Source of the DNA: a virus
DNA length: 24,871 bases
Strand: one strand, 5' to 3'
IMG/VR virus record: IMGVR_UViG_3300042475_004074
Span: 1-24,871 of that record
Below are positions 331 to 6,038 of the stretch, piece after piece. Under the pieces are notes generated by a model. That model saw nothing but the letters and a program-made list of their open reading frames with translations, was not told where the DNA came from and ran no database searches. Both the position numbers and the translations under genes were made by a program. Numbering within the stretch: the stretch's first letter is position 1; each line of letters opens with the position of its first letter.

Positions 331-434
331 AAGCAACAGGGGAAAATATGAGAATCTTGCATCCTTATTTGCGCTTCGTGTGTGTTTTGCCAATCTCATA
401 TCTGTTGCTTGGCGCAAATAAATAGGGTGCAAGG
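331..434 (+). promoter_or_regulatory. Two interleaved long inverted repeats in the leader of the 437 gene
   Basis: Repeat A pairs 331-339 and 346-353 with the uninterrupted run 394-410, giving 17 pairs with one 6-nt bulge (340-345). Repeat B pairs 356-364 and 365-374 with 425-433 and 412-421, giving 19 pairs including one G-T, with one 3-nt bulge (422-424). The order along the strand is A, B, A', B', with one or two nucleotides between A and B and one between A' and B'. Those linkers are too short for both full stems to form together in RNA, so they should be mutually exclusive or form only a partial pseudoknot. Stem B ends three bases before the ATG at 437, so folding it should hinder initiation and folding A should free that segment. 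A riboregulator is my inference; a DNA-level site for a replication protein is the main alternative. Confidence 0.6.
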
Positions 435-3202: not shown

Positions 3203-3213
3203 CAAAATGATTA

Positions 3214-3240
3214 AATCAAAAACCAATCAAAAACCAATCA
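3214..3240 (+). repeat. 11-bp tandem repeat in the leader of the 3243 gene
   Basis: AATCAAAAACC occurs twice in tandem (3214-3224, 3225-3235), followed by AATCA. It ends two bases before the ATG at 3243. The AACCAAT core recurs in the leaders of the genes at 10149 and 10600, so this may be an A-rich translation-enhancing leader. Confidence 0.6.
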
Positions 3241-3242
3241 CT

Positions 3243-3932
3243 ATGAGCAACAAAACGCTTGAGCAACTTAAAGAAGAACTTGAGATTCACAAAATGAATC
3301 TTCATTCAGAAATGATTAAGAATGATGATGTGTTAAGGGATTCTCTCGCAAAAAAAATCGAAGAACTCGAAACTCAAATTGAAAATTATTCAGAGCCGAT
3401 AGATGATGTTCAAGAAGAACCAACATTTACGCCTGTTGTGAGTAAAGGCTCGAAGTCAAAAACAGAAGAAAAGAAAGAAGAAGCACCTGCGAAACCTGTT
3501 GCAAAAGCACCTGCGAAAGCACCTGCGAAAGCACCTGCGAAACCTGTTGCAAAAGCACCTGCAAAAGCACCTGCAAAACCTGTTGCGAAACCTGTTGCGA
3601 AACCTGTTGCAAAAGCACCTGCAAAAGCACCTGCAAAAGCACCTGCAAAAGCACCTGCGAAACCTATTGCGAAACCTGTTGCGAAACCTGTTGCAAAACC
3701 TGTTGCAAAAGCACCTGCAAAACCTGCTGCGGAATCAGGTAAAAGAAAAACAATGATTGAATTGGATAAATTCAAAATAGGTCAAAAAGTTTCTTTTATT
3801 GATAGGACATCAGGAACTACCAAAAAAGGTATCATCTTGAAATTTGCAATAAGCAAGGGTGATAATTGGGCGAGAATACAGACAAAAGAAAAGGAACAAT
3901 GGGTTGCTACTAAAAAGCTGAAATTGGATTAA
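3243..3932 (+). CDS. Ala/Pro/Lys tetrapeptide-repeat protein, histone-H1-like
   Basis: This protein has 229 residues from the ATG at 3243. Residues 1-45 form a charged coiled coil (TLEQLKEELEIHKMN and on). An acidic linker follows, then 20 tetrapeptides of type APAK or PVAK (one PIAK) spanning residues 81-160. The C-terminal 55 residues (KFKIGQKVSFIDRTSG to the end) look like a small SH3/KOW-type barrel. Lys/Ala/Pro repeats of this kind occur in eukaryotic H1 tails and bacterial AlgP-like DNA-binding proteins, so DNA or RNA binding is likely. The parts together suggest a multimeric nucleoid or mRNA-associated protein. A consensus promoter and short leader suggest strong separate expression. 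The 12-base DNA unit makes copy number prone to change. Confidence 0.85.
   Translation: MSNKTLEQLKEELEIHKMNLHSEMIKNDDVLRDSLAKKIEELETQIENYSEPIDDVQEEPTFTPVVSKGSKSKTEEKKEEAPAKPVAKAPAKAPAKAPAKPVAKAPAKAPAKPVAKPVAKPVAKAPAKAPAKAPAKAPAKPIAKPVAKPVAKPVAKAPAKPAAESGKRKTMIELDKFKIGQKVSFIDRTSGTTKKGIILKFAISKGDNWARIQTKEKEQWVATKKLKLD
3483..3722 (+). repeat. 12-bp coding minisatellite, 20 units
   Basis: Twenty consecutive 12-base units are of two types, GCACCTGCRAAA (APAK) and CCTRTTGCRAAA (PVAK, once PIAK). The order is A P AAA P AA PPP AAAA PPPP A, with A and P for the two types. Units within a type differ mostly at a wobble G/A, a sign of repeated slippage or unequal exchange. The period explains why long frames stay open in other frames and on the other strand here. 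Confidence 0.95.
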
Positions 3933-3951: not shown

Positions 3952-4344
3952 ATGAAGCAGTTTAATCTTTTCGGTAAAGAAGAAATACAAAAGGAGGAAA
4001 GGTACTCAAATAAAATTCTCGCTCCTATTTATGAGCCAAAGAATAATAAGCCTCATATTGGCGAATTGTTTGATGAATCTAAAACGATAAGGATTGTAAA
4101 TGAGATAACAAACTCAAACTTAACCGAAGAAGAAAGAAAATTTCTGATTAAATCTGCTCAAAGACACATCGTTTTTCATTACGAAAGAATAGCTGACTAC
4201 TATGCACACGCTACGCCTGAAATGCAACAATTAATGGAAAGAAGCGGTTTGATTATTATTGATTTCAATAAAGCCATTGAATTTGGATTTATCAAAGTTT
4301 GCGATGCAGTAAGAAAGCAATATCTGGAAGAATATGAAAAATAG
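3952..4344 (+). CDS. Conserved Bacteroidota-phage protein (YRHIVF-type)
   Basis: This 130-residue protein opens with a short linker (MKQFNLFGKEE), then KILAPIYEPKNNKPHIGELFD. A helical core contains RHIVFHYERIADYYAHATPEMQQLMERSGLIIIDF at about residues 68-101. I recall this core from phages of Bacteroidota, often beside or fused to DNA methyltransferase or ParB-like genes, but not its function. Its last 11 bases overlap the methyltransferase gene, so the two are likely co-translated and may cooperate. Confidence 0.75.
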   Translation: MKQFNLFGKEEIQKEERYSNKILAPIYEPKNNKPHIGELFDESKTIRIVNEITNSNLTEEERKFLIKSAQRHIVFHYERIADYYAHATPEMQQLMERSGLIIIDFNKAIEFGFIKVCDAVRKQYLEEYEK

Positions 4345-5185
4345 TGCGTTCATATCTAAAATAGGGAAAAAGGACTTGCATGAATTTATAGATTTGTGCA
4401 AAAAAATAGGAATAGGAATAGATGAAGAAAAATTTGAATCTGTTGTTTCAAACACAATGAAATATCTTAATGGGGATAAGGGGAAAAGAAATGAGTTAAG
4501 ATGTATGCAAGAAATTGAAAACAGATGGTACAAGTCTTTAGAAAATGGAAGTCCTGATTTCTCTGTTTATGATGATATTTATTACCTTGCTGATGCTTGG
4601 GTATGCTGGAAAAAATATTCGAGGGAATACATAAAATCAATAGAATCTGAAAAATCTTTAGCTACAAGATTGGAAGATGGAACTTGGGGCAATCTTAAAT
4701 CAATTAAAGATTATATTGGTAAAGTAAAAAGAATTGCTGACTTAGGTTGCGGAATGGGATATACAAGTGCATCATTAAAACAATTATTTAATTGTGATTT
4801 ATATGCAACAAACTTAGAAGGAACTAATCAATACAAAATATGCGAAATAATCGCAAAAGAATGTGGCTTTAATTTGCTTCCAGATTTCAATAATATAGGA
4901 TATGTTGATTTGGTTTTTGCAAGTGAGTATTTTGAGCATTTTCAAGCACCATTAGAGCATCTTTCAGAGGTTATAGACAAATTAAAACCTAAATATATCA
5001 TATTCGCAAATACTTTTAATGCTAAATCAATAGGTCATTTTCCAGAATATAAATATGGACTTTTTTCTTGCAACGGAAAGAGTATGTCGAGATTCTTTAC
5101 TCAAGAATTAAAAATAAGAAAGTATAGAAAAGTAAAAACAAATTGCTTCAACGATAGACCTAATTTATATGAATATGTTGGATGA
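4334..5185 (+). CDS. Class I SAM-dependent methyltransferase
   Basis: This 283-residue protein has a Rossmann-type methyltransferase domain in its C-terminal half. Motif I is IADLGCGMGYTS (134-145), the SAM-binding loop. The acidic end of strand 2 falls near 155-162. VDLVFASEYFEHF (191-203) is the motif IV-like segment typical of UbiE/Methyltransf_11-type enzymes. The N-terminal 130 residues are helical and not recognised. There is no DPPY/NPPY motif of adenine methylases and no PC motif of C5-cytosine methylases, so it is not a standard restriction-type DNA methylase. The glycosyltransferase gene overlaps its end by 17 bases, suggesting both act on one substrate, possibly modified DNA or a surface glycan. 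Substrate is unknown. Confidence 0.85.
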   Translation: MKNSAFISKIGKKDLHEFIDLCKKIGIGIDEEKFESVVSNTMKYLNGDKGKRNELRCMQEIENRWYKSLENGSPDFSVYDDIYYLADAWVCWKKYSREYIKSIESEKSLATRLEDGTWGNLKSIKDYIGKVKRIADLGCGMGYTSASLKQLFNCDLYATNLEGTNQYKICEIIAKECGFNLLPDFNNIGYVDLVFASEYFEHFQAPLEHLSEVIDKLKPKYIIFANTFNAKSIGHFPEYKYGLFSCNGKSMSRFFTQELKIRKYRKVKTNCFNDRPNLYEYVG

Positions 5186-6038
5186 TAATTTTGCTATATT
5201 TATTTTAACACACGGCAGACCAAAGAATATTAAAACTATATCTGCATTGAAAAAGCACGGGTACACAGGAAGATTATATCTAATTATAGACAATGAAGAT
5301 AAGTACATATCAAAGTACAAAGTAATTCATGGCTTATCTAAAGTAATTGTGTTTGATAAAAAAGCAATGGCCGATAAAATAGATGAAGGTAATAACTTTG
5401 ACGAAAGAAGAACTATAACCCATGCGAGAAACGCTTGTTTTGAAATAGCTGAAAAACTTGGGCTAAAATATTTTTTACAATTAGATGATGATTATACAGC
5501 ATTTGAATATAGAATAGATGAAAAAAGCGAAAACAACAGGGGGATTGTAAGGCCTATAAAAAATCTTGATAAAATAATTGGATTGTTTTTAGATTATTAT
5601 AAAAATATTCCAGCATTATCAATAGCTTTTTCTCAAGGAGGTGATTTTATAGGAGGCATTAACAATGGAAAAGGTGCTTATAGATTCAATAAAAGAAAAT
5701 GTATGAATAGTTTTTTTTGTAGCGTTGATAGAACTTTTACATTTGTTGGTGCTATGAATGAAGATGTGAACACATATACAACTCTCGGTTCGAGAGGCAA
5801 TTTGTTTTTGACGATTCCTTTTGTTTCAATAGTTCAAACCCAGACACAAAATAACAAAGGGGGCATAACTGATATGTATTTGAGATTTGGAACTTATTGC
5901 AAGGCTTTTACAACGGTATTGATGCAACCAAGTAGCGTTTTCGTTTCTATGATGAACTCTAATCACAAAAGAATACACCACTCAATAAATTGGGCTAATA
6001 CTACTCCAATGATAATTGATGAAAAGTACAAAAAATAG
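5169..6038 (+). CDS. TET-associated-type glycosyltransferase (TAGT-like)
   Basis: This 289-residue protein has a GT-A-type nucleotide-sugar fold. Residues 10-18 (IFILTHGRP) and 36-44 (LYLIIDNED) are the first strands. A conserved-looking FDERRTITHARNAC block spans 77-90. LQLDDDYTAF (103-112) holds the metal-binding Asp cluster, D106-D108. This layout is what I know of the TAGT/GREB1-like glycosyltransferases, which in phages glycosylate hydroxymethylated bases in DNA. No TET/JBP oxygenase or hydroxymethylase is in the window, so the acceptor base would have to be made elsewhere. A general family-2 transferase acting on a glycan is the alternative. Co-translation with the methyltransferase (17-base overlap) favours a shared modification pathway. 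Confidence 0.8.
   Translation: MNMLDDNFAIFILTHGRPKNIKTISALKKHGYTGRLYLIIDNEDKYISKYKVIHGLSKVIVFDKKAMADKIDEGNNFDERRTITHARNACFEIAEKLGLKYFLQLDDDYTAFEYRIDEKSENNRGIVRPIKNLDKIIGLFLDYYKNIPALSIAFSQGGDFIGGINNGKGAYRFNKRKCMNSFFCSVDRTFTFVGAMNEDVNTYTTLGSRGNLFLTIPFVSIVQTQTQNNKGGITDMYLRFGTYCKAFTTVLMQPSSVFVSMMNSNHKRIHHSINWANTTPMIIDEKYKK

Follow-up and report, generated by a model that had tools for sequence, protein, structure and literature searches.

Two interlocked inverted repeats form a probable RNA control element at the head of a phage replication gene set

Structured leaders that control translation have scarcely been described in DNA phages. In erm-type translational attenuators, stems that share segments (1:2, 2:3, 3:4) respond to a stalled ribosome, and proteins such as gp32 of phage T4 and ribosomal protein S15 bind pseudoknot operators to block or free a start codon. 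The T4 gene 32 pseudoknot, an interleaved pairing in the mRNA leader of a replication gene, consists of short coaxial stems lying 67 nt upstream, leaves the start codon uncovered and controls translation through gp32 binding; a 2010 review counted it as perhaps the sole autoregulatory pseudoknot then known from a virus (PMC3014915). In the leader of the MS2 maturation gene, an early structure keeps the start open and a stabler later one closes it, and co-transcriptional metastable hairpins likewise time translation in the hok and aapA3 type I toxin mRNAs (PMC6733600).

The stretch of DNA analysed here (hereafter the window) spans an entire IMG/VR virus contig of 24,871 bases, linear and without end repeats. 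It carries a replication and recombination set (DnaB helicase, exonuclease VIII, RecT, RusA and HNH), and its further products include a large helicase-like protein and a TET-associated glycosyltransferase, the latter with a ParB-like partner. The leader under study stands 5' of gene 1 (437-1330, + strand), the first gene of this rightward set, whose 297-aa product combines a basic N-terminal part with a coiled C-terminal part and found no match in Pfam, PHROGs or PDB. The basic part is a predicted three-helix segment, and the model as a whole was too poor (pTM 0.24) to be searched by fold.

Between positions 331 and 434, two long inverted repeats interlock in the order A-B-A'-B', as the first-pass annotation had described; read directly on the + strand and re-derived by duplex folding, they give 17 and 19 pairs. 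The 5' part of arm A (331-353) comprises nine paired bases at 331-339 (AAGCAACAG) and eight at 346-353 (ATATGAGA) on either side of the 6-nt bulge GGGAAA (340-345), and its pairing with A' at 394-410 (TCTCATATCTGTTGCTT) is Watson-Crick throughout. Arm B (356-374, CTTGCATCCTTATTTGCGC) pairs with B' (412-433), in which the segments 412-421 (GCGCAAATAA) and 425-433 (GGGTGCAAG) flank the 3-nt bulge ATA (422-424); this stem includes one G-U and could be extended by one more pair, U375-G411. The linkers measure 2 nt between A and B, 19 nt between B and A' (375-393) and 1 nt between A' and B', in agreement with the 1-2 nt given earlier for the first and last of them, and the last base of B' (433) indeed lies three bases before the ATG at 437.

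Folded conventionally, with nested pairs only, the leader region has a minimum free energy that is not unusual (z = -0.29), which counts in favour of chance pairing in A+T-rich sequence. The interleaved topology itself was therefore scored, as the best energy of two interleaved duplexes in a split-point scan. The window leader reaches -47.4 kcal/mol, which was attained by none of 120 dinucleotide shuffles (-26.0 +/- 3.9) and by none of the 413 tiles covering the whole window (mean -16, best -38.1), bearing out the earlier judgement that a chance origin is very unlikely. The signal of the leader is confined to the interleaving of the two long helices.

In the collections searched, no close relative of the window contig was found. 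Single-protein queries with gene 1, gene 2 and the 1818-aa helicase against viral contigs, blastn with the first 2.7 kb of the window against phages and tblastn with gene 2 and its relatives against phages all returned nothing. An A-arm DNA pattern occurred in 69 stretches of viral contigs, none of which had a full A' partner nearby, and these were therefore taken as chance matches; a degenerate gene-2 motif pattern matched four contigs, all unrelated. Alignments of the TAGT glycosyltransferase and of DnaB retrieved many phages that had few genes in common with the window; one true relative, L164, emerged by DnaB, upon which an alignment of two exonucleases (A4) was used as the query and yielded 15 contigs with a close exonuclease and 4 to 17 genes in common with the window. 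Homologues of gene 1 occur in G002 (contig of L256), G004 (contig of L255) and G007 (contig of L257); G007 stops within the gene, and only G002 and G004 extend upstream of it; in these two, gene 1 is 31% and gene 2 44-45% identical to the window copy. No prophage was found among 84,980 species genomes probed by exonuclease and gene 2.

The comparison thus comprises three leaders, all from metagenomic contigs. In G002 (L271, + strand), a promoter box at 152-159 (TATATTTG) is followed by arm A from about 163 (GCTACA, then ATGAAGA), arm B at 226-244 (ATAGGC, AA, AGTTACAGAT), A' at about 252-276 (ATCTTCAT ... TGTAGC) and B' at 300-315 (ATCTGTAACTGCCTAT), which abuts the start codon (ATG 317). In G004 (L272, - strand), the corresponding parts are the box TAAATTTG, arm A (GCTACA...AATAGATATG), arm B (ATAAAAA...AAAAGGGG, extended by TTACA and TAGGT), A' (CGTATCTATTGTGTAGC) and B' (CCCCTTTTATTTTAT), the last overlapping the ATG. 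Their linkers A-B, B-A' and A'-B' are about 43, 8 and 23 nt in G002 and about 39, 25 and 32 nt in G004. The interleaved score is -36.1 in G002, reached by 0 of 60 shuffles (-19.1 +/- 2.4), and -45.7 in G004, reached by 0 of 100 (-19.9 +/- 3.4); with three separate leaders beyond all of their shuffles, chance pairing is extremely improbable.

The three leaders agree in the order of promoter box, A, B, A', B' and AUG; in each of them, A sits where transcription is expected to begin and B' lies at the start codon. The leaders of G002 and G004 are alike in sequence (0/300 shuffles) and can be aligned together, the window leader with neither, its primary similarity to them being undetectable (p 0.21 and 0.20), and the base of stem A differs jointly on both sides, GCAACA/TGTTGC in the window and GCTACA/TGTAGC in the relatives. 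Because the window leader is without detectable similarity to its relatives, the architecture was judged to be the conserved feature, and this supports the reading of an RNA leader that acts on translation. The first-pass annotation had named uncompensated loss of pairing in homologous leaders as a test of its proposal; G002 and G004 keep both the topology and its position with largely different letters, and this retention in two distant homologous leaders supports an RNA leader element before the operon's first gene. Its remark that each stem has one bulge is accurate for the window and does not extend to the relatives, where internal loops occur at differing places. Rfam covariance-model searches gave no match for the window leader or in the G002 and G004 loci; a leader of this kind would escape sequence-based RNA family searches.

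The same comparison bears on the possibility that the inverted repeats act in double-stranded DNA, as an operator, a recombination site or the origin that had been offered as an alternative. Replication genes do follow the region directly and several relatives' contigs stop near it, but the arm letters vary among relatives, and such variation is hard to reconcile with a DNA site recognised by a protein. Moreover, the promoter box and the start codon fix the place of the arms in each of the three leaders, and the bulges, loops and G-U pair make sense in RNA, so that a DNA-level element is not favoured and seems very unlikely.

The TAnnTTTG promoter box of Bacteroidota occupies -12 to -5 (PMC6847099). 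Compared with this consensus, the window has a weak Bacteroidota-type -7 box (TATCTTCG, 313-320, + strand) with a predicted transcript start at about 325; a -33 TTTG was looked for at this box and is absent. In G002 and G004, perfect TAnnTTTG boxes stand directly 5' of arm A. By box position, transcripts would start at the first bases of A in these two relatives and about 5 bases 5' of A in the window, and we infer a host group of Bacteroidota type. In Flavobacterium, whose mRNAs have no Shine-Dalgarno sequences, initiation is tuned by how the RNA folds around the start codon (PMC6847099); in Bacteroidota-type hosts without such sequences, start-site structure is expected to be a main control point.

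Stem B is the stronger one in all three leaders, with B/A duplex energies of -29.3/-18.9 kcal/mol in the window, -21.0/-15.2 in G002 and -25.8/-21.6 in G004. When formed, it would also cover the initiation region in each, ending 3 nt short of the AUG in the window, abutting it in G002 and overlapping it in G004. Minimum-energy folding of the growing window transcript gives the A-form until B' emerges and the B-form thereafter (-22.9 to -32.6 kcal/mol). G002 changes at the same point, less cleanly than the window, and the predicted minimum of G004 is the A-form throughout, with the B-form only about 3 kcal/mol worse. The computed openness of the start region in the A-state and B-state is 0.50/0.39, 0.68/0.34 and 0.55/0.33 in the three leaders, the A-state fold of the window having been obtained by penalising and being confounded by other pairings.

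Judged from these sequences, the leader is likely to be a genuine RNA regulatory element through which gene 1 is opened or closed. The form of control to which we give slightly better than even chances is a cis-acting leader acting on the translation of gene 1, which would head an early operon for replication and recombination, with the leader open in the A-form and closed later by the B-form; we infer both that translation is what changes and the direction of the control. Transcription would begin just 5' of arm A, as the position of the promoter box suggests, and the A:A' hairpin is computed to form first on the nascent RNA, since A' is transcribed before B', so that B' and the start codon are still single-stranded at that stage. 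After B' has emerged, the stabler B:B' would sequester the bases around the start as far as the AUG or across it, as computed for the window and G002; in G004, the energies of the two forms are near-equal. The A-form would then be translated and the B-form not, because Bacteroidota-type mRNAs are without Shine-Dalgarno sequences and structure in the start region adjusts how readily they are initiated, a dependence established for Flavobacterium in general. A likely use would be a limited burst of gene 1 protein from each new transcript, and another would be a switch point at which a protein or a ribosome shifts the balance between A and B.

On this reading the leader would work most like metastable-folding leaders such as that of the MS2 maturation gene, whose kinetics might be mirrored by the stabler B in three of three leaders and the growing-chain change in two of three; G004 stays in the A-form and the nested barrier is high. 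MS2 differs in being an RNA phage, in closing its start with a cloverleaf and in lacking an A-B-A'-B' arrangement of two separate long helices, and homology between the two leaders is not expected. The hok and aapA3 mRNAs are unlike the present leader in that they involve an antisense RNA and pairing of the 5' and 3' ends and belong to bacterial toxin genes. The barrier just mentioned amounts to about 26 kcal/mol when the A-form of the window is converted directly into the B-form by nested steps, and it calls for caution: spontaneous refolding would be too slow unless assisted by strand displacement via pseudoknotted intermediates, so that strand displacement, a ribosome or a protein would be required for the change.

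The proposal that the stems must compete holds for the window only, where the full stems are mutually exclusive by geometry because its linkers are 2 and 1 nt. Those of G002 and G004 permit coexistence, and there both stems could form together as an H-type pseudoknot with long loops, which makes a protein-bound operator a serious rival: A and B would exist together, and a bound protein, perhaps that of gene 1 with its basic N-terminal part, would block or free the start. T4 gene 32 provides the precedent (PMC3014915). The short linkers of the window forbid both full stems in a normal pseudoknot, however, and the gene 1 protein matches no recognised nucleic-acid-binding family. In addition, although the topology is that of translational pseudoknots, the stems here are much longer and fill the space from promoter to start codon; to our knowledge, the stems of known translational pseudoknots are much shorter than the 15-20 pairs found here. 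A pseudoknot operator is thus regarded as possible, if on the unlikely side.

Each of the three leaders also contains an upstream open reading frame (uORF) that starts in arm A and stops just before or inside B', with 25 aa in the window (MRILHPYLRFVCVLPISYLLLGANK, 348-425, + strand, from within arm A to within B'), 41 aa in G002 and 44 aa in G004. Equally long frames arise in 10% of shuffles of the window, so the possible uORF there is not significant alone, and in 0.9% and 0.3% of those of G002 and G004. These frames raise the question of leader-peptide attenuation, in which a ribosome translating the uORF through B and A' into B' would set the choice of stem and couple it to gene 1. This idea draws on the presence of uORFs in all three leaders, unusually long in two of them, and on a hydrophobic ...CV[AL]... 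stretch common to the window and G004 frames and to an overlapping alternative 21-aa frame of G002 (MKVIFIYVFCVAAFIISTSNL). Against it, the peptide similarity is weak (best frame-to-frame p 0.15, 0.035 and 0.03, with pairings that disagree on one frame set), and G002 and G004 have their long frames out of register, which leaves attenuation unlikely. The erm-type attenuators resemble this arrangement in a possible short uORF and a stem closing the downstream start, and differ from it in that A and B have no common segment here and in that weak similarity of the peptides. A distinctly doubtful extension is a two-ORF switch on one RNA, in which A would hide the uORF start and B the gene 1 start, the layout being conserved without sequence across a phage lineage; if true, the interlocked stems would pick between two translation programmes.

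Returning to the preferred reading of translational control by the A- and B-forms, a layout that is kept while its sequence drifts offers clean natural variants for testing folding order and start-codon control.

In L274 (G005), a more distant relative, a box TAATTTTG lies at the contig end directly 5' of a gene 1-like ATG. That gene seems from its sequence to be leaderless, and the interlocked leader may therefore be limited to one sub-lineage. Most contigs with gene 1 or gene 2 (the window, G002, G004, G003, G005 and G007) stop within or near gene 1, at most a few hundred bases away, a pattern that may reflect a break in assembly or the physical end of the genome.

Elsewhere in the window, the tile with the second-best interleaved score (-38.1) contains a long hairpin at 44-114 (TGAGCCTAT...TTATAAGTAA...TTACTTATAA...ATAGGCTCA) with a small hairpin within, and no T-run lies behind it on either strand. 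Gene 2 (1349-2131 in the window, L271:1117-1896, L272:962-1744) encodes a 260-aa protein with the motifs D-L-[TS]-S-A-Y-W-Q and Y-N-I-D-G-I, the AlphaFold model of which weakly matched the palm of the B-family DNA polymerase alpha (E 1.6e-3, low TM-score); it is possibly a minimal polymerase-like protein without family match. The 241-aa protein encoded at 3207-3932 carries a long PAKAPAKPVAK repeat resembling histone H1-type tails. At 3952-6038, a ParB-like fragment, a methyltransferase-like protein and the TET-associated glycosyltransferase are encoded in a row, which suggests that the phage DNA may contain modified bases, and the ParB-like fragment and this glycosyltransferase are paired in many otherwise unrelated phages.
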